Part shown: piece after piece, positions 26,201 to 52,654 of the stretch
Numbering within the stretch: position 1 is the first letter of the stretch
How the letters are laid out: each line of letters opens with the position of its first letter
Assembly: GCF_019008365.1 (NCBI RefSeq)
Contig: NZ_JAHHUL010000003.1
Span: 62,001 to 126,000 of the forward strand
Origin: Phosphitispora fastidiosa
Lineage (GTDB): Bacteria > Bacillota > Thermincolia > Thermincolales > UBA2595
DNA length: 64,000 nt
Direction of reading: 5' to 3'
Position numbers and translations under genes: made by a program
The notes under the pieces: model-generated
Seen by the model: the letters and a program-made list of their open reading frames with translations, nothing else
Databases searched by the model: none
Told to the model about the DNA's origin: nothing

Positions 26201-26785
26201 TTAAATTGTAATAACCTTATCTGCGGCGGACATTTTCTCATAAATGGTGTACATATTGGATACCTGTCCAACGGCAAGCTTGTCCTTCAGATTGAAGTAA
26301 TCCAGGCAGGTGCCGCATGACAATATTTCCACACCGCGGTTCCGCAGGTTTATCAGATGCTCCAGCACCGCTGAATCAGCACAGGTGAGATAAACACCGC
26401 TATTGACAAACAATATTGTCTGTGGCACTTTATCACTTTCTACAAGAGTGAACACAAAACTCTTCATTAAGATATCGCCCAGTTCCGCACTGCCTCGTCC
26501 CAATTCTGATGCCGAGATAAGAAGTACGATGTTACCAGTAACCAGATCATCGGAACTCATTTTGACATTTTTTTTGGTGATATGAACCCTGTATTCATTT
26601 CCTTCCTGTTCTATCTCTACCCCGCACCCCATGCTGTTAGCCAGCGCTTTAACATTGTCTTTGGCCGCTTCATTATCAACCAGGGTGGTTACAGGGCCTT
26701 CTTCCATTGCTTCCAGTACTTTTTTGGTGTTAATAACAGGCATGGGGCATGCCATGCCGCGGGCATCAATGGTTTTTGATTCCAT
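26201..26785 (-). CDS. yedF: YedF-type sulfurtransferase-like selenium metabolism protein
   Basis: 194 aa from the ATG at 26785, preceded by GGAGGAGTGA. Residues ~1-75 form a TusA/SirA domain with the hallmark DARGMACPMPVINTKK (Cys in CPxP). The C-terminal half is a DsrE-like domain (IVLLISASELGRGSAELGDILMKSF ... VEILSCGTCLDYFNL), the architecture of YedF proteins linked to selenium metabolism. Cytoplasmic persulfide or selenium carrier by family knowledge. No selD or selA genes lie in the window. Alone on its strand. Confidence 0.93.
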   Translation of the reverse strand: MESKTIDARGMACPMPVINTKKVLEAMEEGPVTTLVDNEAAKDNVKALANSMGCGVEIEQEGNEYRVHITKKNVKMSSDDLVTGNIVLLISASELGRGSAELGDILMKSFVFTLVESDKVPQTILFVNSGVYLTCADSAVLEHLINLRNRGVEILSCGTCLDYFNLKDKLAVGQVSNMYTIYEKMSAADKVITI

Positions 26786-27056
26786 ATATATCACTCCTCC
26801 ACACAAGTTTTCACTAATCCAATCATAATTATAATACAGGACCGGTGCCTATAACCAATAAAAAAAGAAAATACTTTCCAGACATACAATAAATATTTTT
26901 TATTCTGTCATTGTTTTTACTTTCTCAGTTGAATTGTGACAGGAATTTAGGGGCGTTATGCAGAAATGACAATTAATATTAACTAACAATTATTTACAAT
27001 ACACGGAGTATATTTTAGTAAAAGTAAATTAATACCGGGTAGGAGGAGGAAGCAAA

Positions 27057-29781: not shown

Positions 29782-29825
29782 GGAAGGCTGTCCTATTCAT
29801 ACAAATGGGGCAGCTTTCCTTTTTG
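29782..29825 (+). terminator. Terminator after the TipA-like gene
   Basis: GGAAGGCTGTCC pairs (with G.T) with GGGGCAGCTTTCC, followed by TTTTT. Confidence 0.7.
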
Positions 29826-29836
29826 GCCGCAAAATC

Positions 29837-29970
29837 ACTAATAAGCAGGAAACATGAGACATTTTGGAGAAATTATAGATAAAACTGAAACATAAACCTG
29901 AAATATTTTGCATAAGAATGAGGTTTGATGCCAATGAGCCTTTATCAAAGAGGGAAGTAAATCGTTATTG
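29837..29970 (+). repeat. Remnant copy of the hybrid-kinase leader and first codons
   Basis: This segment resembles 47095-47216 over ~125 bp at roughly 85% identity with one 12-bp gap. It includes the leader, the GAATGAGGTTTGATGCC start region and codons for Met-x-x-Tyr-Gln-Arg-Gly-Lys, then a stop replaces the kinase reading frame. It is either a truncated pseudogene of the kinase at 47173 or the left border of an insertion. 29971-30195 shows no gene. Confidence 0.75.
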
Positions 29971-30195
29971 AATTCAAAGGGTGATGTTTTGCTTCAGAAA
30001 ACTTATAAAGTTGATTGGCTTTGAAAAAAGGTTTGTAAATAAATGTGAGGTTTCCAAGTATTATGTTGAGGAAAGCCATCTTTCGATTATTGATAAAGAA
30101 CCTGGGAAGCGGTACAGCTTGAAATGAAGAGAAGAAGAACCTTTGTAGAGAATCATGGTATCGTAAAAATAGAACACGCCACACTTCTTCAAAAT

Positions 30196-30227
30196 ATTTC
30201 CTATTAAGAAAATTCTTAATAGGAAAT
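30196..30227. promoter_or_regulatory. Perfect 32-bp palindrome before the HMG-CoA reductase-kinase gene
   Basis: Arms of 15 bp (30196-30210 and 30213-30227) around AA, AT-rich, 72 bp ahead of the start. No T-run follows, so operator is more likely than terminator. Confidence 0.7.
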
Positions 30228-30298
30228 TTAAATTATGGAAGGAATTAACACTTAATTGGCGAAAAGTAATGGAAAAAACGATATTAAGGAGTATACGG

Positions 30299-33025
30299 AT
30301 GAAGTTTGTTGACAGCCGCGTATATAACTCACAATTGGTTTTTCACGAAGGCAGGCAGCCTGTTGTAATTATGGTTGCGGGATCCAAAACGTATGGTGGC
30401 AGACTTTTGGAAAAGTCAGACGAAGGTCTTATTGTGGTTATGGATGAGGAGCCAACGGTTAATATTGATGATGTGATATCAACCCTGCATATTGGTGAAA
30501 TCGGTTCTGAATTCTCCGTAAAGGGACTTAGAATAGCCAGTCTTACTAAATACTCAGCAACTCAACAGGTGAGTATTTGTCTTGTCCCGTCGTCCGAAGA
30601 TGTTCAGAGGCGCATTACTGAAGTTCTTCAGTTGATTATTGAAGGAAAAAAAGAAATTCAGGGTGAATACAGTGTCGAAAAGATTCCGTCAACACGCAGC
30701 AGACTGCATTACTCCAAGGAAGCTGTTAACGAGCGTCTAAATTGGGCTCGGGCAGTTTCGGGCGCAAATTTGAATCATATTTCAGAATCAAACTTAGACC
30801 CTGAAAGTCTTGCGGGCAATATAGAAAACTATATTGGCAGTGTTCAAGTTCCTCTGGGATTAGCTGGTCCCATTCTTGTCAGGGGGACATATACTAACGG
30901 ATATTGCCCTGTTCCAATAGCAACGACTGAGGGCGCTCTCATATCGTCAATATGCCGGGGGGCGCGGGCCTGCAACCTGTCAGGAGGTATTCGTGTTCAT
31001 GTAACCCGTCACAGCATGGTGAGGGCACCAGTATTCTTTTGCGAGGACATGGATGGCGCTATAAAGCTGGAAAACTGGATAAAGTTCAATCAGCAAGAAA
31101 TTGCAAGTAAGGCCAATAGTGTCTCATCAGTGGCAAGGGTTATAAAATTAAATACTCTTCTGTTTGGTAGTATCCTGCATCTTCAGTTTTACTTTTCTAC
31201 GGGGGATGCGGCTGGTCAGAACATGACGACAGCATGTACTTGGTTTGCCTGTGAGTGGATTGTTAGAAAGATTAGTAGTAACAAGCAAATCAAATACATA
31301 TCATATTGCATTGACGCAAATCTTTCCGGAGATAAAAAGGTTAACCTGCAAAATTTCGTTAATGGACGGGGAGTTTCTGTTACTGCTGAGTGTCTCATTT
31401 CCGACGAAACATTGCAACAGGTTTTGAGAGTCAGTCCCAGAACTCTTCTTCACCTCGCCGCTGCTGGCGAAGTTGCCGGCTTGGTTACTGGTATGGTTGG
31501 GGTGAATATTAATTTTGCCAATATAATTGCTGGCATATTTACTGCAACCGGCCAAGATATTGCTTCCGTCCACGAATCCTCGACCGGCATATTTAAGTAT
31601 AGAGAAACATACCAGGGAGTTATCTTTACAGCCTATCTTCCATCCCTGGTAATTGGTACTGTGGGCGGTGGTACTCACCTGCCTACTCAAAAAGACTGCT
31701 TGGAACTAATGGGCTGTTACGGTTCAGGTAAGCTTTTCCGGTTGGCGGAAATTATCGCTTCTGCATGCCTGGCCCTTGATATTTCTACCCTTTCGGCAAT
31801 TCGAAATAATGAATTTGTGAAAGCCCACGAAAGGTTAGGCAGAAACCGTAATAACAGAAAATTTACCAAATCGGAGATAAATGCAAGGTTTTTTTCAAAA
31901 TTGCTTTCAGCTAGGAAAGTTAAAGTAACCTCTTTTTCAGAAGAAAAAATTAAAAATATTGACGGTATCGTTTCAAATATTGTTGGTAAGAAATCAGGGG
32001 CGTCGGTAGGACTATTTAAGTATAAGTTAAGGATTAATACTGACAAGGGACCCCGGGAGATGCCCGCTGTATTAAAATTAAAGTCCGCAGAAAGTGATCT
32101 TCTTAATACCGGCGTGGGGCTTGTTCGTCTTTCGGGAGAAGATAGGCTGCCCGGGCTTTTTGAGAGGCATCAGCACATTTTCGGGTTTGAAAACAGTACC
32201 ATAAGGGAAATCGCGTTTTATAAAGATGCCAAACCTGAGGTTCTGAAATTTTGTCCGGAAATATACGGAACAAAAATAGAAGAAGACAGGGCTTTATATG
32301 CAATCCTGATGGAAGATCTTTCAGGAAATGCTAACTTTAGCACTATTGATGACCCGGCACAGTGGGATGAAAACAGCATAAAAGCGGTTTTAGAAGGCAT
32401 GGCCTCAATACACTCGGCTTATTTTAATGATTTTCAGAGTATACCTGAATCCATGCAAATTAACAGGTTTGATCCGGAATCACTTTTTGCTGCCAGCGAG
32501 TTTCTGAGAGAATTAACTGATTTTAATGCCGGGAAGTTTCCGGAATTAATTACTTCTCAGGTTAGAAAACTCTACCATGATTACATAACAGGTTTTTCCT
32601 CCAATTTAAAGAAGATGCAGGATTTTGCCATGACTTTGGCTCACAATGATTTTAATACCCGAAATCTTTGCATAAGTAATCAAAGCGGACACAAAACTCT
32701 GGTTTTGTATGACTGGGAGCTGGTTTGTTACCAGAATCCTCAGCATGATCTGGCTGAATTCCTGGTTTTTGCTTTAGGTGAACAAGCAGATGTAAAGCAA
32801 TTTTACAAATTTACGGAATTCTATCGGATTCAACTTCAGGAAAGAACCTGCATTACGATACCAAAAGAAAGCTTTAACCAGGTATTGCGTCTGAATTTGA
32901 TGGATCTTGCCACTGTCAGGTTTAATCTTTATCTGCTTGCCCACAATTTATTGCACTTTAAGTTTATACCCAGGGTGTACGGAAACCTTACAAGGTTTAT
33001 AGTCGAGAGTGACGGAGGTTACTAA
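30299..33025 (+). CDS. Fusion: class I-like HMG-CoA reductase domain plus APH/choline-kinase-like kinase
   Basis: 908 aa from the ATG at 30299, chosen because AAGGAG lies 7 bases before it; the ATG at 30269 has no ribosome site. Residues ~1-115 form a beta-rich N-domain that may be PilZ-like (GRLLEKSDEGLIVV), tentative. ~120-520 is an HMG-CoA reductase domain: ENYIGSVQVPLGLAGP, PIATTEGAL (E211), STGDAAGQNM, SGDKKVNLQNFVNGRG (K346/K347), ATGQD (D420), GTVGGGTHLP and VKAH (H510), i.e. all four catalytic residues of the family. ~590-908 is a phosphotransferase fold with LAHNDFNTRN (D784, N789) and LYDWE (D805). The final TAA overlaps the next ATG by one base. Reaction probably acyl-CoA reduction then phosphorylation; substrates unknown. 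Confidence 0.85.
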   Translation: MKFVDSRVYNSQLVFHEGRQPVVIMVAGSKTYGGRLLEKSDEGLIVVMDEEPTVNIDDVISTLHIGEIGSEFSVKGLRIASLTKYSATQQVSICLVPSSEDVQRRITEVLQLIIEGKKEIQGEYSVEKIPSTRSRLHYSKEAVNERLNWARAVSGANLNHISESNLDPESLAGNIENYIGSVQVPLGLAGPILVRGTYTNGYCPVPIATTEGALISSICRGARACNLSGGIRVHVTRHSMVRAPVFFCEDMDGAIKLENWIKFNQQEIASKANSVSSVARVIKLNTLLFGSILHLQFYFSTGDAAGQNMTTACTWFACEWIVRKISSNKQIKYISYCIDANLSGDKKVNLQNFVNGRGVSVTAECLISDETLQQVLRVSPRTLLHLAAAGEVAGLVTGMVGVNINFANIIAGIFTATGQDIASVHESSTGIFKYRETYQGVIFTAYLPSLVIGTVGGGTHLPTQKDCLELMGCYGSGKLFRLAEIIASACLALDISTLSAIRNNEFVKAHERLGRNRNNRKFTKSEINARFFSKLLSARKVKVTSFSEEKIKNIDGIVSNIVGKKSGASVGLFKYKLRINTDKGPREMPAVLKLKSAESDLLNTGVGLVRLSGEDRLPGLFERHQHIFGFENSTIREIAFYKDAKPEVLKFCPEIYGTKIEEDRALYAILMEDLSGNANFSTIDDPAQWDENSIKAVLEGMASIHSAYFNDFQSIPESMQINRFDPESLFAASEFLRELTDFNAGKFPELITSQVRKLYHDYITGFSSNLKKMQDFAMTLAHNDFNTRNLCISNQSGHKTLVLYDWELVCYQNPQHDLAEFLVFALGEQADVKQFYKFTEFYRIQLQERTCITIPKESFNQVLRLNLMDLATVRFNLYLLAHNLLHFKFIPRVYGNLTRFIVESDGGY

Positions 33026-34113
33026 TGTCTGTTCATGATGAAGTACGGTTTGATTTTATCAGGTATGCAAACTGCTGGGAAGATGCTGACATTTTGGCGG
33101 AGGCTCTGAGGATTAAAAAGGGTGATAACTGTCTTTCCGTTGCTTCTGCTGGGGATAACACCTTAGCGCTTCTTTTAAAGGACCCCGAATTGGTGATGGC
33201 TGTTGATTTCAATCCGGCCCAGCTGGCCTGTCTTGAACTTCGTATGGCGGCCTTCGCCAACCTTGACTATGACGAAACTCTGCGATTTATCGGTATCGAT
33301 GAAGAGAAGGAAAGAAAACTGATTTTCAGAGATTTACGTTCCTGTTTGTCAGAGGAGTCCAGAAAGTTTTGGGAGTCACATCCGGAATATATAGATCTGG
33401 GGATTATTCACGCGGGGAAATTTGAAAATTATTTCAGGATAATACGTAGGTACATGCTGCCTTTAATTCACAGGAGGAGGCATATCGATCTATTACTTGA
33501 TCAAAAAGAGCTAACTGCTCAGAAAGTATTTTATGAGCGGGTTTGGAATAATGATAGATGGAAATTACTGTTTAAGATTTTCTTCAGTAAAGCAGTTATA
33601 GGCCGCTTTGGGAGGGACCCTAAATTTTTTCGGTATGTTGAGGAAAATGTGGCCCTTAATATTCTGAAACGAACTGAATACGCTCTTACTTCTGTTTCGA
33701 ATTACTCCAATCCTTATTTAAATTACATTGTCAAAGGAAATTTTCCAAAGCACGCCCTGCCTCTGTACCTTCGAAGGGACAGTTATCAACAAATCAGAAA
33801 AAACCTGCATAAAGTTAAAATATTTAAAGGCGGAATCACTTCCTGCATTGATGAACATAAAGAAATTAAGTTCGATGCTTTTAATCTTTCAGATATATTT
33901 GAATATATGGATGTGCCCATTTTTCATAAAACCCTACGAATAATCCATAGGGCAGCGGAAAAAGGAGCCAGGGTGGCCTTTTGGAACATGATGGTTGATA
34001 GAACTATTCCGTCTGATTTTCCGATAAAAACCGATTTCAATCTCTCTGAAAAACTTCACCTTAAAGATAAAGCGTTTTTTTACAGAAGGTTTATTGTCGG
34101 AGAAGCTATTTGA
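33025..34113 (+). CDS. DUF3419 family (BtaA-like S-adenosylmethionine 3-amino-3-carboxypropyl transferase)
   Basis: 362 aa, start overlaps the reductase-kinase stop (TAATG), so the two are cotranslated. N-terminal signature FIRYANCWEDADILAEAL and the SAM-binding loops LSVASAGDNTLALLL and VMAVDFNPAQLACLELR match the DUF3419/BtaA family. BtaA moves the aminocarboxypropyl group of SAM to diacylglycerol in betaine-lipid synthesis. No BtaB-like N-methyltransferase is encoded nearby, so the product is probably not DGTS. The C-terminal domain (~280-362, FNLSDIFEYMDVPIFHKTLRIIHRAAEKGARVAFWNMMVD) is also typical. Acceptor unknown; the partner gene suggests a phosphorylated alcohol or polyketide/isoprenoid-type unit. 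Confidence 0.87.
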   Translation: MSVHDEVRFDFIRYANCWEDADILAEALRIKKGDNCLSVASAGDNTLALLLKDPELVMAVDFNPAQLACLELRMAAFANLDYDETLRFIGIDEEKERKLIFRDLRSCLSEESRKFWESHPEYIDLGIIHAGKFENYFRIIRRYMLPLIHRRRHIDLLLDQKELTAQKVFYERVWNNDRWKLLFKIFFSKAVIGRFGRDPKFFRYVEENVALNILKRTEYALTSVSNYSNPYLNYIVKGNFPKHALPLYLRRDSYQQIRKNLHKVKIFKGGITSCIDEHKEIKFDAFNLSDIFEYMDVPIFHKTLRIIHRAAEKGARVAFWNMMVDRTIPSDFPIKTDFNLSEKLHLKDKAFFYRRFIVGEAI

Positions 34114-34159
34114 AACAACACAAAGGCCCTCGTATAGTAGATAAGCAGGTGAACACCAT

Positions 34160-34918
34160 TTATAATCTAAACCCCGTTTTTGTCATTAGCCTGATTTGTT
34201 TTAGGGAGGGATTTTTAGTATATTTTGGCCTCATGCTAATGTTTTTGTCACTGAAAAAGTATCCTGACTGGGAAATTTTTATAAGGCTCAAGAGAAGTTG
34301 CTCCGACTCGGCAATACTGGAAATGCGGGGTATGTCGGGGTATGTCTTAACTTTTGACAAATCGATTTGTTTTGTGATAATAATATTTCCACCATCGATT
34401 TCTTCATTCATCCAATGAATCGAAAAACCGACCGGTCTGTTTTCAACCCAAGCCCAAAGGTCACACATGGTTCCCCGGTTATCAGGCAGAATTCCATGAT
34501 GAATGTTAATGCAGCCTATTTCAGGTAATGACAGGATTTCCTTCTTATAAATATTTCGTGTACGAAGATTAACAATCAGGTCAGGTTGTAATTGACGGAG
34601 TTTACATAATGACTCCGTGGAGTTAATATCTTTGACTTTTAGGATAGGGATGTGCAGTGATTTAAGCAGTCTGATTCGGGGATCGTAAATGAATGATGTC
34701 AGCATGTTTTTTAGAAGGGTTAACGAAAAGTGCCTGGCTCCTATGAACATTAAAAAAATCACTTTAAGGAGTAATTGTAAAGAAAAGGTTTTTATAAAAA
34801 CAACACAGGAGATCTCTGTGTTTTCTGGCAAATTATTTTTATCGGTAACTTGTTTTAAAAGATAATAATAATTACCTTTGACATATGTAAACTGTGATGT
34901 TACTAAAATGACTTTCAT
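34160..34918 (-). CDS. Formyltransferase-fold protein (Fmt/PurN superfamily)
   Basis: 252 aa, ATG at 34918 with a weak GAGG site. The formyltransferase core is clear at ~105-180: LQPDLIVNLRTRNIYKKEILSLPEIGCINIHHGILPDNRG carries the catalytic Asn and His (NxH), and NEEIDGGNIIITKQID supplies the conserved Asp. The first ~90 residues are more basic and hydrophobic (LLLKVIFLMFIGARHF), unlike Fmt, so membrane association is possible. Converges on the DUF3419 gene with 46 bp between stops and has its own promoter. In context it may N-formylate an amine made by the neighbouring enzymes, an inference. Confidence 0.82.
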   Translation of the reverse strand: MKVILVTSQFTYVKGNYYYLLKQVTDKNNLPENTEISCVVFIKTFSLQLLLKVIFLMFIGARHFSLTLLKNMLTSFIYDPRIRLLKSLHIPILKVKDINSTESLCKLRQLQPDLIVNLRTRNIYKKEILSLPEIGCINIHHGILPDNRGTMCDLWAWVENRPVGFSIHWMNEEIDGGNIIITKQIDLSKVKTYPDIPRISSIAESEQLLLSLIKISQSGYFFSDKNISMRPKYTKNPSLKQIRLMTKTGFRL

Positions 34919-34943
34919 GCCGGATACCTCAGTTTTTGCCTAA

Positions 34944-34972
34944 ATTATATCATAATGGTAAAATTGTGACAA
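34944..34972 (-). promoter_or_regulatory. Promoter of the formyltransferase-fold gene
   Basis: Minus strand TTGTCA (34972-34967), 17-bp spacer, TATAAT (34949-34944). The region 34973-35249 beyond it shows no recognisable gene. Confidence 0.75.
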
Positions 34973-35249
34973 TGTTGGAACGAGGTAGGCAGATGCACTC
35001 TTGGTTCAATGGTTTATCCGAGGAGTCTGTCCGAGAATAAATCTGCAAACAACATTCTCCCCCGGTTTTAATTATGGTAACTGGGGAATTCATTTGTTGG
35101 GCTTATGCAATGAATTCTTAAGATAAATTGGTGGAAGACTTGTACTCCTTTGACTTAGCCAAATACGGGTTTAACCGTTTTCTGACGCAGTTGGTATTTT
35201 TTTCGACCGCGTTTGGTTTTAATTTTTCTTTGCATATTTTATTTAACAC

Positions 35250-35478
35250 TTAAGTTGCCTGGGATTTGTCTTCGCGAAGCCGGTTCTTTAAACCGGGAAT
35301 GAGGCTGCTTATCTGGAGGTATGTGTATGCATCTATCACCTCTTTTTCAAGAAACCCAATATTATCTTCACTGAAATACCCGGCATCCGCCGATATTTCG
35401 TTAGGATTATGACCAGTGTTGGTGTTAACAGCATGTGCCATGAATTCTGAATGGTTTACATCAGTTGCCTGATTCGTT
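35250..35478 (-). pseudogene. IS1182-like transposase fragment
   Basis: Minus strand reads NQATDVNHSEFMAHAV then GHNPNEISADAGYFSEDNIGFLEKE, the internal segment around the catalytic Asp (SADAGY) of IS1182/IS5-type DDE transposases. N-terminal and C-terminal parts are missing and no terminal inverted repeats were found. Marks past IS activity between the HMG-CoA-reductase locus and the RHS operon. Confidence 0.7.
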
Positions 35479-35672
35479 ACTCCCTTGATTTACCTGAATA
35501 TCTCAAATCCTATCGATTGGCGGGCTGAAATCAGTCAGCTTGCCTTCCGGCGAAGAATGTGGGAGCATTATATACTGTTATTAATGACGACCAAATTGCA
35601 GAGTGCTAATTCCCGAGTTCGTCGGCTGCAGCAAGAGCAGACCGGTACGGAAGGCCAGGTCAACCTCCGAAC

Positions 35673-35722
35673 AAAAAAGTTTCCTTCCCTAGAAATGGTT
35701 AACCAGGAAGGAAACTTTTTTT
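35673..35722. terminator. Strong bidirectional terminator
   Basis: Perfect 16-bp stem with A-run and T-run built in (35673-35688 with 35706-35721), 17-base loop. It lies 113 bp beyond the stop of the last gene of the minus-strand RHS operon. 35479-35672 holds only non-homologous open frames. Confidence 0.9.
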
Positions 35723-35835
35723 GTGAGCCACAGGCAGCTGGTAACGGGTGGGGGTTGATGAAGATATGGCCCATTCAGTTGTTGCAAGATATTCTATTAT
35801 GGTTTTCTGGCTTAAAGACTCATTAAGGCTTTCCT

Positions 35836-36081
35836 TTAATTTTGTTTACGTATTTTTTTCAATATAATTGATGTGATTATTAATAAAATAATATTAACAA
35901 ATGTAAACTCTATGAACTCTTCTAGTTTCTGGCCGTTATAACCAATGTCACCAACAAATCTTTCTTTTAATCCAATTAATATAGTGGTACTTCCTAAGAT
36001 AACAAGTACTGATAAACAAATAAATATAAATGTTAGTATAGTCTTTATTATTTTAACCGAGATAGTTCCTTTTTTGTCCAT
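35836..36081 (-). CDS. Small two-helix membrane protein, candidate immunity protein of the RHS gene
   Basis: 81 aa from the ATG at 36081; AAGAGGTG lies ~11 bases upstream, and a GTG at 36093 would overlap that site. Two hydrophobic helices (IIKTILTFIFICLSVLVILGSTTILIGL and FVNIILLIITSIILKKI) separated by a charged loop (KERFVGDIGYNGQKLEE). It is AT-rich and starts 15 bp after the RHS stop, the position immunity genes take in polymorphic toxin loci. No family recognised; the immunity role is inferred from position, size and base composition shared with the RHS tip. Confidence 0.65.
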   Translation of the reverse strand: MDKKGTISVKIIKTILTFIFICLSVLVILGSTTILIGLKERFVGDIGYNGQKLEEFIEFTFVNIILLIITSIILKKIRKQN

Positions 36082-36096
36082 AACATATTTCACCTC

Positions 36097-39000
36097 TTAA
36101 TCTGGCCATATAACCACATACCAAGGAAGCTTATACTCATTACCTGTCAATTTCTTGTAATCGTTTGTTAAACTTTGTATCTCACTGAAATTAATTTGCC
36201 ATTCATTAGTTATACTTTTTTGGTGTTTTCCAATTTCTCTAATTTCCTTATAATCTCGAATAATTTGGTTTGTTCTTCGCTCTATATCCTCCTTAATATT
36301 TTTAAGATCATCTTCAATCTCTTTGACTTTTGCCTGGTTTTCTTTTTGGGTCCAGAATAATAGCAAACCCGTTTTGATAGCTATTTCTGTCTTTGATTCA
36401 GCAATAACTGCAGAATTACTTGCAATATTTACTGTTAAGCCTAATTGGGTTTGTTTATTCTCAGAAAACTGCCTTTTAAGTGATTCATTTCTATTAATGA
36501 GTGTATTAATTCTATCTTGAATTCTTTTTATTACATCCGATTTATTAATTAAAGGACGATCATTATATAGGTTTATTGAGTTACTATGAACAACAGTTAC
36601 TTCACCTTTAATAACTTGACTATTTTTGTTTACAGTTTTTTTCTTCTGCTTGCTGCTTTTGTTTCTATTATTATACTTGGCAATATTTATTCTTGCCTTT
36701 ATTATAGCACTTGCTATTGTGGATACGCTTTTAGGCAAGAAGAAATGCCCACTCGGATCAATATACCTCACCGGATTATTAGCAGCATATGAATAAAAAT
36801 GCTCCTGCCAGGCTGCCCCAAAGGCTATCGCATAAGAATCCTCCTGCGTAAACCTCTGCACGCTTGGGTCATAGTACCGGGCCCGCAAGTAGTAGTTGCC
36901 GGTCTCCTCATCCAGGTACTCCCCACAATAGCGGAAGGGGTTGTCAATCTTCTCTACTTCCTGCCGCCATAATTCAGTCGTCTGCTTACCGCCAAATGCA
37001 GGTAGAGGATTGACTTCTTCCTGCCCAAAGGGATCATACCGGTAATCCTTAATAAGTTGGCCCTCTTCATCCAGTAGCTGGGTGACATCCCCATGAGCAT
37101 TGTGCAGGTAGAATAACATCTGTGCATCAACCTGACCGGGGTTATTCTCCCGGTAAATCAGTTTCAGACCGCGGATGTTTCTTGCCGTAACTGCATTATT
37201 CTTATCTGTCTCCAGGATAATATTACTTCCATTGTAGTAATAATTTGTTGCCGTATCCCCAAAATCCTTCTTAGTTCGTAATCCGGTTCCATTATACGTA
37301 TACTCAACGAATCTACTGTCCGGGGTCTGTACGCGCTGCAGCTGGTTAAACCCGTTGTAGTAATAGTTAAAGGACTTGGTGGCCATGGTATTGCCATTGA
37401 TTTTAAATACATCTTCCTTGGTCAGCTGGTTTCCCACCGCATCATAAGTAAACCTGTGCTGAACCGTTTCTCCGCTTTTTGTTGTTTCCTGGAGCATAAG
37501 GCGGTTGTTCTTGTCATAGAGGTATGATGTTTCTTCAATCTTGTTCCCGGTTATTTCAGTAATCGTCTTGATATTGTCCAAGTCATCATATTCATAGTTT
37601 TGAATTTTGTCATTTGGCAGCAAGGCAGTCTTAATCCGGGATAGGGGGTCATAGTAGTACTTGGTAGTCCCGTTTCCTTCATCCTTTTGAATTTGGTTGC
37701 CGCGCTTATCATACTTATACTCATAACTGCTGACAATATTGCTGCCATCCCAATGACGCAGGTTTTTGACATTACCTGATGGGTAGTACTGATAGGTTGA
37801 TTTAATTCCCGTAACCCCGTTAAGTTCTTCCGTTAATTGGCCAATATCATTGTATTTGTAGCTAAATCTCTTGCCATTATCGTTGAGTGTTATTAACCTG
37901 CCCACATTGTCATATTCATAGTTCAGGTTAATCTGTGTCAGGCTGCCCTGCAGCACCTTAAGGGCAGAGACCCGGTCAACCCTGTCATAGGCATAGTTCT
38001 GCCTGATACCGTTTCCGTAATTTACAGAGGTAAGGCGTCCTAAGTTATCATAATCAAAAACAGTGGTTCCGGAGGCATCAGTCATCTGCCTGGTTTGCCC
38101 CAGCTTGTCAATTGTTATATTAATAGCTGTTTTCTTGCCGTCCTTACTGTTTTGTTTCTGTACCAGCCGGTTCAGACCATCATAAGTATAGGTTGTGGCA
38201 ACCTTATTCCGGTCAATCAGCCTCACCAGGTTACCATTATTATCATATTCATATCGTGTTTCCTTATCGGCAGCATCTGCTGAGAGGATGAGTCTGTTCA
38301 GGGAATCATATTCATACGAATATGAGGAGGACTCTTTATCCTGCCAGGAATTTAGCCCTTTGACAACCTTTGTGGTATTACCGACCCTATCATATTCGAA
38401 CTTGGTGATATTGGACTCTGTAGAGCTAATTACCCGTTCTGTCGCCGACAGGAAATTGCGGCTTGTATAATATTGCCTGGTCTCAAAACCTTCCGGGTCC
38501 ACTGTCTTTATCAGGTTGCTGTTGTTGTCATAATAGAATCTGGAGACAGCAGACTTTCCTGACTCGAAAGGTGCCTTAACAACTATCTGCCGGCCCAAAG
38601 AGTCATATTCAAAAGATACCGTCTGCCCCAGGGCATCAGTTTGGGCTATCATATTACCCAGCCGGTCATACCGGTATTCAGTACTGCTGTCTTCGGCATC
38701 AGTTACCTTGGTTAACTGGCTGAGGGCATCATACTTGAAGAGGGATTTTGTTCCGGCAAAATCAATCGCTTCTGTCTGGTTGCCCAGGTAGTCATACCTG
38801 TATTGAGCAAATTCTTCTTTGTTTCCGTTAAATCTACCCAGTTTGGCCAGCCATTCGAAGGTATCAAAATAATAGTTAGTGACTCTGTTTTCCCGGTCAC
38901 CCTTGGCAGTTACTGTTACCTTAAAGAAGGGATTGCCGAACTTGTCATAATTGGCCTCATCATAGGACACCCTTGTATCAGCCAGAATCCTGCCGCTGCG

Positions 39001-41373
39001 GTCAGCGTGGCTGACTGCGCTAATCCGGTTCAACTCATCATATTTGAGATATTTAGTGTTCTTGTTACCGTCCTTTTGCAGGATCGGGTTTTCCAAGTCA
39101 TCATACTGCAATTCAGCAAGAACGGTGTCTGTCTCCGGGGCAGTAACCCGTAATAAATCCCCCAGGCCATTGTAGTCATAAACTAACTTATCACCATTGG
39201 GGTTAGTTACCTCAAGGATATTATTTAAATCATCATATTTATATGTTGTTGAGCTTTTATCAGGATACGTCTCCTGTAAAAGCCTGTCCAGGGCATCATA
39301 ACGGAAGTAAGAAGCATTTCCTTTTCCGTCAACAGAAGTAAGTCTGTTACCGGTGGCCAAATCATAGGTATATTCCGTTTTAATATCCCTGGTGCCGCCA
39401 TCAGCATCCTTGACATCTTCTTCAATAACTGCTGTCAGGTAAGCCCCTTTATATTTAGAGCTAAACAAGAATCTGGTAGTTACCCATTCACCCGGTTCCT
39501 TTTCAATCTTTTGGCTGGTAACATTTCCATACCCGTCGTAAGTATATTCTGTCTGCGCCAGAAGTTTTCCGTTGCCGTAAAAAGTCTCACTGGCAACAGT
39601 CTTTTTATCTGGGCTGAGGGAATACCGGACTTCAGCGGTGGTGTTTTCATCCTGCTTGAATTTCTTGCTCTTTAGCAGGTTGTAAGCGAAATCATAGCTG
39701 TAGAATATCTTATGTTCATCACTGTTAATTTCATCAGGATCATCAGGATGGTTTTCGGCCACTATGTTCCCACGGTGGTCATATTCATATGTATCCACCT
39801 TTTCTGAGAAATCATACTTGGCATTATATGTTTTGGTAGTATCTCTTACAGGCAGGTTATATTTATCGTGATATTTGGTAAAGACTTCACTTAACAGCCG
39901 GTCTGAACGGAGTTCCGTCGTGTATAATTGGTGTTTCCCATTATACATGTATTTAGTTGTTACATCTTTTCTGTCGGTGACCGTAGAATAGTATTTATAG
40001 AGTTCATCTATTGAATCTGCCTTATATGTTGGATACCCGTCGGGTTCGTTATAGTATTGGTATCTTAAGAGGTTATAGGTTCTGTCTCCATCAACATCCC
40101 GGCGCTCTTTGACCTTGAAATACTCCATGAACCCACTGTTCAGGTTTTTCTTGCTTTTTTCATAGACATATTGGGTCTTAGCTCCGGTAGGGTAGGATAT
40201 TTCTATCAAATTGGCATACAGATTATTTTCCGAGGACTTATTTCCTATCTGGTCAAAAGCAGCTTCCTGGAAGGTATATTTATAGGAGAATTGGCGCCCC
40301 TGGGTATCAACAAATGATGATAAGTAGAATTTTCCCGTTTGACCCGGAATTTGAGTTTTAATCAGACGAACACTGCGTCCGCCGGATTTAAAAATAGTAC
40401 CGGTATCGTTATACTGGATATCCACAACACGGCCTACCGAGTCAACAACTTTGGTTAACAGCCTGAGACCATTAATGGTTTCATAGTAGTACCTGATGGA
40501 ATTGTGGGACCGATCCATCTCCACCAGCAGTTCACCATTAGCAGAGAAATAGTAGGATGTCCCATCGGCATAATAAAGCCTATAGGCAGAGGGATCCTGG
40601 CCATTATCAAATGTAGTATCTTTGGTAAAGACTATGTCACTCAGCTCATAATCAGCCAAACCTGTTCCGGTGGTAAAGTCAGCCTTATATGTTTGCCCAT
40701 TGGGCAGGGTAACCCATACTGTTTTATTATCATCTTCTCCATCTACTTCTAGAGTAGGGATATCAAGGCTCCAGCCTTCCCCGAAGATATATTTGGCTGC
40801 TGAATCAGCACTTTTTGCTCTGGGCTTATTTACTATATTGCTGGTAGTTAAATCAGGAGTTCCTGACTCGAACTGGAGATAACCGGTAAATACCCATTTA
40901 TGCTCGTCTAAAGTTGTTTCACCCAAAATAGTTAATTCGGCTGGATATTTTAGCGCTCCTGTTTTTAACCAATACCCGTTGGCATCAAAAACATCATAAT
41001 AGGCAATTACAGTTTCCCCATATTTAATGCCCCCGGCGCTGCTGGTTCCTTCATCGAATGCTTTGGCATCCCTGTTACGGTATTCCAGGACCAGGGATAA
41101 GTCCATGCCATTACGCCCCGGGATATCAAATATGGTGTTCCGGATATTTAATTCACCGGTTTCAGTACTTACTGTTTCCCGTATCCCACTGGTGGCCTTG
41201 GAGAATGGAGCATTTAACTCAATATTATATAGTGCCTTCTGTTTATCTTCCTTGAGGACTTTCATCAAAGAAGAGACCGTAGTAACCTTAGGTGTCTCAG
41301 CTACAGCAGCCTGACACCATAGCATCATTCCGGTAAACAGGAAGGCTATAAGAGAAAAGCAAAACTTCTTCAT
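36097..41373 (-). CDS. Secreted RHS/YD-repeat protein with unique C-terminal tip
   Basis: 1758 aa from the ATG at 41373 (GGAAGG at good spacing; a TTG at 41379 is also in frame). Signal peptide MKKFCFSLIAFLFTGMMLWCQAAVA. The N-terminal ~450 residues resemble the beta-rich region before RHS shells, followed by dozens of YD repeats (e.g. YDALSQLTKVTDAEDSSTEYRYDRLGNM). The RHS core ends with NYYLRARYYDPSVQRFTQEDSYAIAFGAAWQ...YAANNPVRYIDPSGH. Beyond it a Lys/Asn/Ile-rich, predicted helical tip of ~215 residues (36097-36750) has no recognised homologue and differs in base use. Likely a contact-dependent or secreted toxin; third gene of a four-gene operon. Confidence 0.92.
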   Translation of the reverse strand: MKKFCFSLIAFLFTGMMLWCQAAVAETPKVTTVSSLMKVLKEDKQKALYNIELNAPFSKATSGIRETVSTETGELNIRNTIFDIPGRNGMDLSLVLEYRNRDAKAFDEGTSSAGGIKYGETVIAYYDVFDANGYWLKTGALKYPAELTILGETTLDEHKWVFTGYLQFESGTPDLTTSNIVNKPRAKSADSAAKYIFGEGWSLDIPTLEVDGEDDNKTVWVTLPNGQTYKADFTTGTGLADYELSDIVFTKDTTFDNGQDPSAYRLYYADGTSYYFSANGELLVEMDRSHNSIRYYYETINGLRLLTKVVDSVGRVVDIQYNDTGTIFKSGGRSVRLIKTQIPGQTGKFYLSSFVDTQGRQFSYKYTFQEAAFDQIGNKSSENNLYANLIEISYPTGAKTQYVYEKSKKNLNSGFMEYFKVKERRDVDGDRTYNLLRYQYYNEPDGYPTYKADSIDELYKYYSTVTDRKDVTTKYMYNGKHQLYTTELRSDRLLSEVFTKYHDKYNLPVRDTTKTYNAKYDFSEKVDTYEYDHRGNIVAENHPDDPDEINSDEHKIFYSYDFAYNLLKSKKFKQDENTTAEVRYSLSPDKKTVASETFYGNGKLLAQTEYTYDGYGNVTSQKIEKEPGEWVTTRFLFSSKYKGAYLTAVIEEDVKDADGGTRDIKTEYTYDLATGNRLTSVDGKGNASYFRYDALDRLLQETYPDKSSTTYKYDDLNNILEVTNPNGDKLVYDYNGLGDLLRVTAPETDTVLAELQYDDLENPILQKDGNKNTKYLKYDELNRISAVSHADRSGRILADTRVSYDEANYDKFGNPFFKVTVTAKGDRENRVTNYYFDTFEWLAKLGRFNGNKEEFAQYRYDYLGNQTEAIDFAGTKSLFKYDALSQLTKVTDAEDSSTEYRYDRLGNMIAQTDALGQTVSFEYDSLGRQIVVKAPFESGKSAVSRFYYDNNSNLIKTVDPEGFETRQYYTSRNFLSATERVISSTESNITKFEYDRVGNTTKVVKGLNSWQDKESSSYSYEYDSLNRLILSADAADKETRYEYDNNGNLVRLIDRNKVATTYTYDGLNRLVQKQNSKDGKKTAINITIDKLGQTRQMTDASGTTVFDYDNLGRLTSVNYGNGIRQNYAYDRVDRVSALKVLQGSLTQINLNYEYDNVGRLITLNDNGKRFSYKYNDIGQLTEELNGVTGIKSTYQYYPSGNVKNLRHWDGSNIVSSYEYKYDKRGNQIQKDEGNGTTKYYYDPLSRIKTALLPNDKIQNYEYDDLDNIKTITEITGNKIEETSYLYDKNNRLMLQETTKSGETVQHRFTYDAVGNQLTKEDVFKINGNTMATKSFNYYYNGFNQLQRVQTPDSRFVEYTYNGTGLRTKKDFGDTATNYYYNGSNIILETDKNNAVTARNIRGLKLIYRENNPGQVDAQMLFYLHNAHGDVTQLLDEEGQLIKDYRYDPFGQEEVNPLPAFGGKQTTELWRQEVEKIDNPFRYCGEYLDEETGNYYLRARYYDPSVQRFTQEDSYAIAFGAAWQEHFYSYAANNPVRYIDPSGHFFLPKSVSTIASAIIKARINIAKYNNRNKSSKQKKKTVNKNSQVIKGEVTVVHSNSINLYNDRPLINKSDVIKRIQDRINTLINRNESLKRQFSENKQTQLGLTVNIASNSAVIAESKTEIAIKTGLLLFWTQKENQAKVKEIEDDLKNIKEDIERRTNQIIRDYKEIREIGKHQKSITNEWQINFSEIQSLTNDYKKLTGNEYKLPWYVVIWPD

Positions 41374-41389
41374 TCTCAACCTTCCTTTC

Positions 41390-42334
41390 TTATCCGGAAT
41401 AACTGTTTATTATCTCTTCCCAACTCTTGCCGGCTTTTCTTTCCTGCAGGATTTCATCCATTGAAGTTCCGGACTTCTCTGCCAGGCGGGCCGCATTTTT
41501 TACTTCCCAGACAGAAAATCCGTCTTCTTTGTATTTACCCAGTTGAACCCTAGTTAGATTATGCTCCCTGCAAATCTCTTGTTCAATTTTCTCTTTTTCC
41601 TTTTCGGCCTCGGCATTAGCTTTTTTTACAGCAGATTCATAGTCTTCTGCCGAAATAGTCTGGTTACCGGCAGCCTTTTTGATGTTTAGGGTGGCCTTAT
41701 CGTTTGCATTTTCAAATTTGTATGCAAGCTGATTGCCGACTTGTTCCCAGGATTCAGAGTTCTTTTTTAATTCCAACACTTTTTCAATATTCATATCCTT
41801 TGCCCTGGCGATACTGTCAGCATTTAAAATATCCTGTGGCGTGTAGCCGTCTTTCATCCAACTGCGTATCAATTCCTCATCGGCAGGCTTATAATGCTTG
41901 AAGTCCTTCATATTTAAAGCATTGGAGAGGACAAACTGCATTTCTGTCCCTTTGGCATGCTCAGCCAAAAGCTCTCCCGCCAAGCTGAAATCAGAATCAT
42001 TGGCTGCCAGGAATTCATATACTGCTAGAACATCTTCTGCCTTGTATTTTGTTATTAAACCGAATACTTCTTTATAGGCAGCCTGTTTTATTTCTAATGT
42101 ATCTAGTATTTTTTTGTATACAAATATGTTCTGCCTGACTGTATCCCAGTCTTCTATGGCATCATATAACCGAAGTACCGCACTTTTTGACAGCCCGGAC
42201 ATGGCGGCAATATCACTAGCCAGTTGATTGTTGTCTGCAGATTTACCGTTTCCCACTGCCCAGACTGCTGCACCTGCAAACAAAGCTATTAGGCAAACTG
42301 CCAGAATTACGGTGTTGCGCTTTGATAACCTCAT
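41390..42334 (-). CDS. Secreted helical protein with two tandem repeat units
   Basis: 314 aa, ATG after TTAGGAGTG. Signal anchor or signal peptide at 6-27 (NTVILAVCLIALFAGAAVWAV). The rest is helical, with two units of similar pattern: MKDGYTPQDILNADSIARAKDMNIEKVLELKKNSESWEQV and, ~70 residues later, YKEDGFSVWEVKNAARLAEKSGTSMDEILQERKAGKSWEEI. Related SWEEI-type motifs occur in uncharacterised exported Firmicutes proteins. Lies between the RCC1 and RHS genes with 17-28 bp gaps, so it may act with them in export or assembly. Function unknown. Confidence 0.78.
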   Translation of the reverse strand: MRLSKRNTVILAVCLIALFAGAAVWAVGNGKSADNNQLASDIAAMSGLSKSAVLRLYDAIEDWDTVRQNIFVYKKILDTLEIKQAAYKEVFGLITKYKAEDVLAVYEFLAANDSDFSLAGELLAEHAKGTEMQFVLSNALNMKDFKHYKPADEELIRSWMKDGYTPQDILNADSIARAKDMNIEKVLELKKNSESWEQVGNQLAYKFENANDKATLNIKKAAGNQTISAEDYESAVKKANAEAEKEKEKIEQEICREHNLTRVQLGKYKEDGFSVWEVKNAARLAEKSGTSMDEILQERKAGKSWEEIINSYSG

Positions 42335-42362
42335 TTTTTCACACTCCTAACTTGGGGTGAAT

Positions 42363-45300
42363 CTAACTCTCGTCAACTGAAACGAATTGAACGTTATAGT
42401 AGTTTATAAAATCATTTGTAGTAGGAATGCGGTAGAAAATGGAACCTCTATTATACTGTCTTTCATTAATCCATTCCATAAAGTCTTCTACAGAATCTTC
42501 ATCAAGGCCATTGTAGGTCTTAATAGTCCCATCGGTCATTGTAATGTTTAATATTAAATTAGGCAGCACGAACAGGTCTTCAACATAATCCACCGTAATC
42601 AAGCTGTTATACCCTTCGGTTGACATGTCATCAACCTTCATGGCATTGACAACAGAGAAACTGGTCCCTGCAAGTTGACTGGTTAGGTCCAATTCAGGGA
42701 TGGCTCTTAATTCTTCTGCACTCATCCCCTGCTGGGTAACGGCAATCCAATTGTTTTCAACATCAGCTATTAAATCGGCACTAACAGTTGTCCACTGATT
42801 GTCCTTATAGGAGTAGTAAACTGGATTTGTTGGGTCTTTAACAATGAAATAGTGCATTTCAGCAGCTTTGGGCTGAATTTCTACCGGGTAAATCCTTCTG
42901 ATTTTCCTCCAATTAGATGCATCAAAAGACTGACTTTTTGTGGTATATAAAGCCTTTTCCAGTGATATATCACCTGAATAGCTGTCACCGCCATTGAGTG
43001 TTACTGTTATGCTTTTTAGAGATGGACTAATATAGGGGTCCACTGAAGCAAAGTATACTGCTGTATCAAAATACAGTACCTCACGTCCGCCGGCATAGAG
43101 GGGCGCAAAATCACTTTCATCCATGGCATTGACCTCGTCTATGGTCATTCCATGTTGTTGGAAGTCTTCGTCTAAAGGAGTAGCGCCTGTTTTGACAACT
43201 GCCCATGTCCCTTCTTTGTATGTATGCCATGAATTCTTGCCGTCAAAGGAGAATAAGTAACGCTCAGGTCGTTTCACACCATTGAAATAGTAGGTTGAGA
43301 GACCATTAACAGCAATATAGGCCATTTTGGTGCCTGTATCATTCACACTAAATTGATAGCTATCTTCAGCATCAGTAGGGCGGATGTCTTTTAATGTATC
43401 TGTTTCGGTATCGTAAAGGTGATATTGATCATTTCCATCATTAAGAATTAATTTATTGCCATCAGTGACTTTGATAATATTTGAGTTGTTATTTACATCA
43501 AGTTTCCTGGAGGTTTCTGATGAAACCTGATAACTATACAGGTCTCCATAAACTTTCGTGAAAACTAAAGATCCATCCGAATTTGACCACAGCCCTTGGA
43601 CAGTATCCTTTGCAGTCATTAACTCAGAACTCTGCCAGCCTGTTGGAGTTTTTACTACTTGGAATAGCTTGTCTGCATTGGTATAGAATATCTGGTTTCC
43701 TATTCTGGAACTGTCAAGATGACTAGCTGTTGAACTGATCAATAACTCACCAGGTGATGTTGTTGAGTACAGATATATATTGCCTTCACCGTGATAACAA
43801 ACGGAACCATCATTTTGAACTGAATAATCTGCAACACCTGTCTTAACAAGAGTCGTTTGTTTGGAAATGTCATCATAAACGTATAAATCATTTGATGCAG
43901 TTTTAAAAGCAACTTTATTCCCTGTTAAATCTGTTTTAATGGACACAGGTACATAACTGGATAGTTCCTTTTTTTCCCCGGTTCTTAGATCAACTAAATA
44001 TAACTTATTTCCAGCATCGGGGTTTGCATAAAAGATTCTGTTTCCGTCTCCTGACAGGGTAACTACTGTAGGTTTAGCAGTAGAGTATGTTCTTGTGACT
44101 GGAAGAGAGCTTATTGTTCCTGAATTGTCAATATATGATGAGTCAATGGAAACCTTTGACATTTTACCTATTGGTAAGACGGAGAGACAATCTCCAGTTA
44201 TTGTTAAGTCTTGCAACTGAGAGGTAATAAAAGGGTCATTAGATGTCAAAGTTACTTTATATTTCAAAACTGCGCTTGATAAATCCGTTTCTGCAGAAAC
44301 ATCTGGGATGAAGCCACCATTTGAAACTGCTTTCCATCCTTGCCAGCTAACCCCTTCGTCTAAAGAAACGTTGGTTTCTACTGATAATCCGGTATTTGCA
44401 GGAACAATGGAAGTCCAGCTAATGATTAAGTTGGTAGGATTTTGAATAGTTGATAAGTCTACTGTTGCTTCATAGTATCCTCTGGTATGGTTTAGAGCAA
44501 AGAAAGAGCTTGTTTGAGGGCTTGTAAACCGAAACGTGGCAGTTCCATCTATCTGCCCCCATGAGTTGCTTCCCCAAGCCCACACTGTACCATCAGATTT
44601 TATAGCCATTGAATGCTTTTCCCCAGCAGCAATCGAGACTACATCGGTTAGACCGATTACCTGTCCTGGGGTGGGCTTGGTTGTAGTAGTACCATCTCCT
44701 AATTGCCCATCCATGTTGTCTCCGCAGGTCCATACTGTACCGTCAGATTTAAGTGCCATTGAATGACGCGCCCCAGCAGCAATAGAAATCACATCCGTTA
44801 GACCGCTTACCTGAAGAGGGGTGTACCATACAATTGTACCAGTTACATATCCTAACTGGGCACAACTATTATACCCCCACCCCCAAACTGTCCAATCAGA
44901 TTTAAGTGCCATTGAATATTGGAACCCAGCAGCAATTGAGACTACTTCGGTTAGACCGCTTACCTGAACTGGGGTGTAACTGTCTGTAGAAGTACCATCT
45001 CCTAACTGGCCAAAATTGTTTTTCCCCCATGCCCACACTGTACCATCAGATTTTAATGCTATGGAATGATCATTTCCAGCGGAAACAGAAACTACATCGA
45101 TCAGACCGCTTACCTGTACCGGAGTGTATCTGTGTGTAGTAGTGCCATCTCCTAACTGTCCATTACTATTATAGCCCCAAGCCCACACTGTACCGTCAGA
45201 TTTTAATGCTACAGAATGCATAGATCCAGCAGCGATAGTAACTACATCGGTCAGACCGCTTACCTGTACCGGAGTGTACCTGTGTGTAGTAGTACCATCT

Positions 45301-46328: not shown

Positions 46329-47094
46329 TTAATTACCTCCAATAATTTTTACTTTAAAAAAATTTTTGAGACTACGATGCTTTCAGAACGAGCTTATAAC
46401 ATTTAGCAGCGAAAACTGGAGACTCTTTCCGGCAACACCTAGGTCCAACAGAAAAAACAATGACACAGGGCTGAACCAATTGTAGGCCTTTCCACTCCAC
46501 CTCCTATTCACATTAAATCACCCAAAAAATACCCTTTTTTCAATTAAAAGCAGATTACCCCATTTTTTACAAATGACTTTTGTTCCTACTATTGTATAAC
46601 ATCAAACCTGCTAACAATGTCGAAATAGCAGGACTAGGGGTATGCAAATGCGGTCGAATTTGTCATCTTAATGTAAAGATTTCAAACTGGACAATCTCCT
46701 CATTTCCTGAAATGCGGTTTTTGGGGTACAAAATACGGTCTTAGGGGTTTAAAATACAAAAAAAACCACGAAATTAATCGCAGTCTTTTTGAGTATCAGC
46801 AAAAATTTTTTACTTTTCTTAGCTTGCCCTTATCAAGTTGAAGCATTTTAATTTTGTGGACGAAATTATTTCACCCGATTCTTGTCAAAATTTAGATTCT
46901 TTACATAACCTGCCTCGTCATGGGAAGTATCCCGTAGATATTTTCCAGAATTGTTTATAAGATCCCAATATTTTTGTAACGGTAGCGGCACGTTCAGCCT
47001 TTGCTCTTTGTCCATGTTTCTCATTTTAAAAAAATAACCTGCTTTTCATCTACTACTTTCTAGATATTCTTGCCATTGGTTGCTGTTACCAGTA
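46329..47094. other. 766-bp non-coding region upstream of the RCC1-RHS operon
   Basis: No gene or known riboswitch recognised. It holds a GC-richer block (46385-46505) with a short ACCTAGGT dyad, and three imperfect copies of a GGGGT-AAAT-C motif (46637-46655, 46723-46740, 46744-46757). It should contain the minus-strand operon promoter, but no clear -35/-10 pair was found. Confidence 0.4.
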
Positions 47095-47216
47095 ACTGAT
47101 TAGCAGGAAATATAAGACATTTTGGAGAAAGCATATATAAACACGAAATATTTTGCATAAGAATGAGGTTTGATGCCCATGGGCTTTTATCAAAGAGGGA
47201 AAAGACTCGTTATTGG
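47095..47216 (+). repeat. Intact copy of the kinase leader (pair of 29837-29970)
   Basis: Leader plus first codons of the hybrid kinase; partner repeat lies 17.3 kb upstream in the same orientation. Confidence 0.75.
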
Positions 47217-52590: not shown

Positions 52591-52654
52591 AGATGTTTGA
52601 AGACCCATAGAATTCTAAAGTGTGAAACCGGAAAATTATGTGAGATGGGAGGAA

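Follow-up and report, generated by a model that had tools for sequence, protein, structure and literature searches.

The protein of 908 aa encoded in the stretch of Phosphitispora fastidiosa DNA analysed here (64,000 nt, hereafter the window) joins a reductase domain of the class I HMG-CoA reductase (HMGR) type to a kinase domain of the APH/EcKL type, and it belongs to a family that recurs across the Bacteria. From its residues and gene neighbours, the reductase is probably not an HMG-CoA reductase. With moderate confidence we regard the fusion as a bifunctional lipid-assembly enzyme, an acyl-thioester reductase and kinase that would produce a phosphorylated alcohol for an undescribed bacterial lipid.

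Gene Structure and Domain Architecture

The fusion is encoded by one uninterrupted open reading frame on the + strand (Table 1). The longest form opens at 30269 and comprises 918 aa, and residue numbers of the fusion protein are counted from that start. The ATG at 30299 is preferred as the start codon, because an AAGGAG motif lies 7 nt upstream of it and the N-terminal extension is disordered, residues 1–20 of the long form being without structure in the AlphaFold2 model.

The Pfam family HMG-CoA_red (PF00368) matches residues 152–525 with an E-value of 2.3e-106, EcKL matches residues 647–858 (E 1.7e-15, 57.6 bits against a gathering threshold of 22) and APH is also matched (E 1.5e-6, 28.6 bits against 23.2). 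In the AlphaFold2 model the reductase and kinase domains are folded with a mean pLDDT of 85 (92 for the kinase alone), and the packing of the domains is unsure (pTM 0.57). Foldseek matched the reductase model to the HMGR structure 6hr7 (6e-29) and the kinase model to APH/choline-kinase folds, with 25-hydroxysteroid kinase among the matches. The N-terminal PilZ-like domain is kept in the branch of close relatives and is missing or divergent elsewhere. Its assignment as a true c-di-GMP PilZ domain was considered and not adopted: the topology fits, but the motif (RxxxR / DxSxxG) and the Pfam support are weak, with a PilZ match (E 2.6e-4) in one of 20 homologous N-termini and none in the window protein itself.

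Table 1. Features of the fusion gene and its surroundings in the window.
Feature	Position	Strand	Evidence and remarks
PilZ-like + HMGR-like reductase + APH/EcKL kinase fusion	30299..33025	+	908 aa from ATG 30299; Shine-Dalgarno-like AAGGAG 30286-30291
N-terminal beta-barrel plus helix, PilZ-like	30326..30643	+	Predicted secondary structure; no recognisable c-di-GMP-binding RxxxR motif
Class I HMGR-like reductase domain	30722..31843	+	E221, K356, D430, H520 kept; K735-equivalent Gly/Ala; S684-equivalent D349
APH/choline-kinase-fold (EcKL) kinase domain	31889..33022	+	K603/K605, H792-N793-D794, N799, D815-W816-E817
DUF3419 (BtaA-like SAM:3-amino-3-carboxypropyl transferase family)	33025..34113	+	Pfam PF11899 E 1.1e-69, 235.9 bits against gathering 28.2
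Island, apparently laterally shared	29842..35001		93-99% identical to G005, against about 83% in flanking merR
Small stand-alone formyltransferase-domain protein	34163..34918	-	Formyl_trans_N E 1.7e-14; 97.6% identical in G005
Junction without ligase	34148..34157		G005 carries 2.1 kb here with AMP-binding ligase (L110:1876-3696)
Terminator-like hairpin closing upstream merR	29782..29819	+	Island probably transcribed separately

Catalytic Residues of the Two Domains

The reductase catalytic residues E221 (TTEG), K356 (DKK), D430 (GQD) and H520 correspond to Glu559, Lys691, Asp767 and His866 in human numbering. The fusion shares this set and the fold with class I HMGR (PF00368; 6hr7, 8ecg/7uli Arabidopsis HMG1 and human HMGCR), the equivalents of D690, K692, N755 and R590 are also kept, and a four-electron thioester reduction is expected. 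The kinase carries the HxDxxxxN catalytic loop and the metal-binding Asp (D815) of APH/EcKL kinases, whose residues here are H792, N793, D794, N799, D815, W816 and E817. Across 34 fused proteins drawn from many phyla, neither these residues nor the four of the reductase vary.

The kinase has its fold and its HxDxxxxN and DxE motifs in common with APH, EcKL and choline kinases and with ACAD10/11, and differs from them in sitting C-terminal to a reductase. Its identity to solved relatives is 10–18%. The kinase profile finds its best solved relative in ACAD11, through the kinase domain (E 1.8e-4, a weak match to the catalytic loop only), which, like 25-hydroxysteroid kinase, acts on hydroxyls of lipid-like substrates; the ACAD10/11 kinases phosphorylate 4-hydroxyacyl-CoAs (PMC11342911). 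This relationship to a hydroxyacyl-CoA kinase would fit a scheme in which the kinase acts first, on the hydroxyl of an acyl-CoA, and sets up an elimination or isomerisation, the reductase then acting on the altered thioester. Such an order is improbable, given the weakness of the ACAD11 match, the lack of a dehydrogenase domain for phosphate elimination and the many loci that offer a CTP-dependent CarS-like enzyme to use a lasting phosphate.

Loss of the HMG-Binding Residues

Lys735 of HMGR forms a salt bridge that holds the terminal carboxylate of HMG, and Ser684 is one of the conserved polar contacts (PMC9500038). The Lys735 equivalent is Ala, Gly, Ser, Thr, Phe, Ile or Val and the Ser684 equivalent Asp or Glu in all 42 fused sequences. 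Almost all unfused relatives with the GDAAGQN motif are likewise without both equivalents. The Lys and the Ser are kept in archaeal and plant HMGR (6hr7, 8ecg) and in a Streptomyces HMGR (L116), a divergent enzyme whose gene is flanked by those for an isomerase and HMG-CoA synthase in a genuine mevalonate cluster. Besides these two positions, the fusion differs from class I HMGR in the replacement of M657 by Gln (motif GDAAGQNM), in being joined to a kinase and in falling below the NCBI equivalog cut-off, with 301.7 bits against 441.8 for NCBIfam TIGR00533.

The initial annotation had named phosphomevalonate, or a mevalonate-like phosphate, as one possible product. The conversion of HMG-CoA through mevalonate to phosphomevalonate in one chain, for isoprenoid synthesis, would agree with the overall similarity to class I HMGR (TIGR00533, E 8e-90) and with the conserved catalytic residues, yet it is very improbable. 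Apart from the loss of both binding residues in every fused member and the low TIGR00533 score, the kinase is APH-type and not GHMP, and the host uses the MEP pathway: Dxr is present in the window genome, and HMG-CoA synthase was found neither there nor in genome G005, in searches whose positive controls matched. HMG-CoA synthase was also absent from 10 of the 13 other fusion hosts tested, several of which are MAGs of unstated completeness, and no mevalonate-pathway genes were recognised among the fusion neighbours examined. On the pocket residues, the host pathway genes and the gene neighbourhood, a role in the mevalonate pathway was rejected.

For the same reasons of pocket and host (residues lost, Dxr present, no HMG-CoA synthase), and with a gene neighbourhood of lipid type, the comparison with Firmicutes mevalonate pathways drawn in the initial annotation does not apply. 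The general chemistry that it proposed, in which an acyl-CoA is reduced to an alcohol that is then phosphorylated, survives as the best reading of the two domains; phosphomevalonate as the product is not supported.

Distribution and Phylogeny of the Fusion Family

A scan of about 85,000 species genomes recovered at least some 40 full-length fusions, with hosts in Bacillota, Myxococcota, Thermodesulfobacteriota, Nitrospirota, Pseudomonadota, Bacteroidota, Actinomycetota and others; the 42 fused loci span about ten phyla. In the HMGR-domain tree, all fused sequences and five unfused Streptomyces ones form one clade (support 99/93), which is consistent with one fusion event followed by later losses. 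A phage origin was also considered and was discarded, since phage records returned nothing that matched the fusion. The open-access PMC literature, as searched here, yielded no account of the fusion or its cluster.

The initial annotation had recognised a single chain of a class I-like HMGR and an APH-type kinase with both active sites intact, an architecture not known to it. The uninterrupted frame with Pfam matches above gathering, the invariance of the named residues, the predicted folds, the recurrence of the family in 42 fused loci and the silence of the literature searched all bear out this description. Three things had escaped it: a PilZ-like domain at the N-terminus, a DUF3419 gene coupled to the fusion, and the missing site for the HMG carboxylate.

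Several unfused HMGR-like groups were also observed. One large branch (L056-L092), from Chloroflexota, Bacteroidota, Acidobacteriota and Deltaproteobacteria, is without Lys735 and, with one exception, without Ser684, and is probably a widely misannotated enzyme family; several of its deltaproteobacterial copies adjoin a DUF2156-like gene, which is conserved, and one for an iron-containing alcohol dehydrogenase. A third HMGR-like group, found in the phylum of the window host (L004-L007), has the motif GDACGPNM, with Glu in the place of S684 and Gly in that of K735, each gene adjoining a ferritin-like/iron-oxidase-like gene. On an Alteromonas macleodii plasmid (L115:1139-7167), an unfused HMGR-like gene without the Lys is clustered with an AMP-binding protein, an SDR, an iron-containing redox enzyme and a 'thermostable hemolysin', possibly another non-mevalonate HMGR pathway.

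Gene Neighbourhoods of the Fusion

Neighbour families were counted with separate profiles over the 42 fused loci (41 besides the window), which are of unequal length. A PPDK/PEP-synthase-like enzyme (PPS) is present in at least 22 of them, UbiA in about 17, a CarS-like (CDP-archaeol-synthase-like) enzyme in 16, a CDP-alcohol phosphatidyltransferase in about 12, an OleC-like acyl (AMP-binding) ligase in seven and PS decarboxylase (PSD) in two. In about a third of the loci, including those of the nearest relatives of the window, the CarS-like enzyme and UbiA both stand beside the fusion, and compact versions of the cluster occur in cultured Paenibacillus and in Kosakonia sacchari. The CarS-like protein matches the solved CDP-archaeol synthase 5guf (1.6e-7), the CDP-OH transferase (CDP-OH_P_transf) matches pssA above cut-off, and the AMP-ligase is OleC-like (PRK09274). 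The UbiA-like members keep the first Asp-rich motif only, so that the UbiA donor may be unusual.

In clustering UbiA, the CarS-like enzyme and the pssA-type transferase, joined in two cases by PS decarboxylase, many fusion loci resemble the archaeal ether-phospholipid pathway (GGGPS, UbiA/DGGGPS, CarS, archaetidylserine synthase and decarboxylase). They differ from it in the additional fusion, PPDK-like enzyme and acyl ligase, and in that no GGGPS-type gene was recognised in the clusters; among 15 host genomes, a full-length GGGPS/PcrB match was found in three only, and none in the window genome (G000). The clusters with a CarS-like enzyme also differ from the FCB-group system, in which CarS was not detected (PMC7852524).

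A substrate origin of the olefin/OleABCD type was considered and set aside. In Paenibacillus oenotherae (L018) the cluster has an OleD-like gene nearby, but this gene comes with a set of KAS III, ATP-grasp and lactonase genes that the other Paenibacillus loci do not have; together with the OleC-like ligase it may hint at the involvement of a beta-hydroxy acid.

Seven Streptomyces loci and one from Mangrovihabitans carry instead GH3 and a thymidylate-kinase-like gene. On the plasmid of Streptomyces NBC_01435 (L011:6083-14202), the fusion is clustered with GH3, DUF6182, thymidylate-kinase-like, TyrA-like, CysDNC and NRPS genes, of which the GH3 and thymidylate-kinase-like genes recur in seven other actinobacterial loci.

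The NRPS, PPTase, thioesterase, GH3 and sulfate-activation (CysDNC) genes that adjoin the Streptomyces relatives could be a sign that the product is a secondary metabolite and not a membrane lipid. The family would then make a secreted compound, siderophore-, pigment- or antibiotic-like, that includes an alcohol in phosphorylated or prenylated form; PigC and RedH, prodigiosin ligases found among the relatives of PPS, and the MMPL/RND and LolA-like transport genes of the gammaproteobacterial loci point the same way. We consider this rather unlikely for the family, since the CDP-archaeol-synthase-like enzyme, the pssA-type CDP-OH transferase and PS decarboxylase all belong to the synthesis of phospholipid head groups, and the MMPL/LolA genes fit lipid export too.

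The DUF3419 Gene as a Possible Alternative Head-Group Module

In the window, the ATG of the next gene, DUF3419, overlaps the stop codon of the fusion by one base, and by this arrangement the two are translationally coupled. This gene belongs to the family of the betaine-lipid enzyme BtaA, which transfers 3-amino-3-carboxypropyl from SAM to diacylglycerol (PMC10685587), and its acceptor could be another lipid alcohol. The window differs from the BtaA system in that no BtaB methyltransferase was recognised beside DUF3419, and in the linkage of DUF3419 to the fusion, which is found in four loci of three unrelated lineages: the window and G005 (L002), Myxococcales (L024) and Bacteroidia (L049). 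Within the phylum of the host, DUF3419 occurs in two of the 199 sampled genomes, the same two that carry the fusion.

Among the 42 loci, CarS/CDP-OH and DUF3419 never occur in one locus, yet L024 and L049 have PPS, UbiA and the AMP-ligase in common with the CarS-type loci. This distribution, in which exclusivity rests on four DUF3419 loci, is suggestive of one lipid core served by two alternative head-group modules.

History of the Island in the Window

The fusion and DUF3419 lie in an island (Table 1) whose counterpart in G005, a genome of a different genus, holds a fusion copy 97% identical to that of the window. The differences between the two copies by codon position are 22/7/42, as expected under purifying selection. 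The fusion is absent from two congeners, and one of these, G002, has merR and is without the segment from about 29.97 to 47.1 kb (window 29970-47095, ~17 kb). In G005 a ligase lies between DUF3419 and the formyltransferase gene, and its best relative among the loci compared is the ligase beside DUF3419 in L024 (2e-80). Because the island is closer to G005 than the flanking merR is, is absent from G002 and includes an extra ligase in G005, it appears to have been shared laterally; the ligase was probably lost from the copy in the window. The terminator-like hairpin closing merR makes it probable that the island is transcribed separately.

The pair in the window might have been acquired laterally and be left over from a larger pathway, with no complete function in this genome now. 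The ligase deleted here and present in G005 would suit this, as would the absence of the pair from two congeners and of UbiA and CarS from the window genome, neither being found in searches that had no positive control; close PPS orthologues were also sought elsewhere in this genome, and only generic PEP synthases appeared. Against a remnant stand the intact frame of the fusion, the excess of third-position differences, the preserved catalytic residues and the other AMP ligases elsewhere in the window genome, and we judge it rather unlikely.

The segment 29970-47095 also encodes an RHS-repeat protein at 36100-41379 and, at 42366-46328, one with RCC1 repeats, and looks like an insertion hotspot downstream of merR. 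Elsewhere in the window, a fusion of TusA and a DsrE-like domain (YedF-like) is encoded on the minus strand at 26204-26806, and at 52622-60907 two large S-layer (SLH) proteins are encoded side by side, one carrying GLUG motifs and the other a cadherin-like domain.

A Proposed Route to a Phosphorylated Lipid Building Block

Alongside the observed domains, residues, site loss, gene clustering and module exclusivity, we infer the substrate, the order of the reactions, the product and the identity of the lipid as follows. The starting point would be an acyl thioester with no distal carboxylate, probably made by the partner ligase (of the AMP-binding type or, at most Streptomyces loci, GH3). Using two NAD(P)H, the HMGR-like domain would take this thioester to a primary alcohol in a four-electron reduction. 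With ATP, the fused kinase would place a phosphate on the new alcohol, or else on a hydroxyl that the chain already has, and the phosphorylated alcohol would leave the protein. In most relatives, UbiA and the PPDK/PEP-synthase-like enzymes would elaborate the core. In the CarS-type loci, the CarS-like enzyme would activate the phosphate (CDP) and the CDP-alcohol phosphatidyltransferase, with or without PSD, would add the head group; in the window, G005, L024 and L049 this step may be served instead by the BtaA-like DUF3419 with SAM. HMG-CoA is itself a 3-hydroxyacyl-CoA, so a 3-hydroxyacyl thioester is our best guess for the substrate.

For the lipid reading we count the invariant catalytic residues, the lost K735 and S684, a host without a source of HMG-CoA, the lipid-gene clusters, the exclusivity of the modules, the co-occurrence of DUF3419 with the fusion, the kinase matches to ACAD11 and 25-hydroxysteroid kinase and the single clade. 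Against it count the Streptomyces neighbours, the partial Asp-rich motifs of the UbiA-like members and the window genome itself, for which a complete route cannot be written because UbiA and CarS were not found by the searches run and the ligase is gone from the island. The acidic residue in place of S684 could equally bind a polar group.

A more specific form of the lipid reading is a glycerol-free membrane lipid, in which a 3-hydroxyacyl thioester would be reduced to a 1,3-diol that, once phosphorylated, replaces (prenyl)glycerol phosphate; UbiA would add a second chain, and the head group would come via CDP (CarS-like, PssA, PSD) or through DUF3419. This version is tentative, and on present evidence doubtful.

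Implications for Bacterial Lipid Biosynthesis

Many bacterial genes automatically named HMG-CoA reductase are probably not such enzymes, since a branch of the superfamily, fused and unfused, is without the Lys and Ser that bind HMG. Were the fusion to make a lipid backbone, this would point to a bacterial lipid pathway not described so far, one that employs CDP-archaeol-synthase-like and UbiA enzymes in hosts mostly without GGGP synthase, and would bear on the lipid divide between Bacteria and Archaea. Should the glycerol-free version be true, it would amount to a widespread class of bacterial lipids built by partly archaeal-type enzymes.
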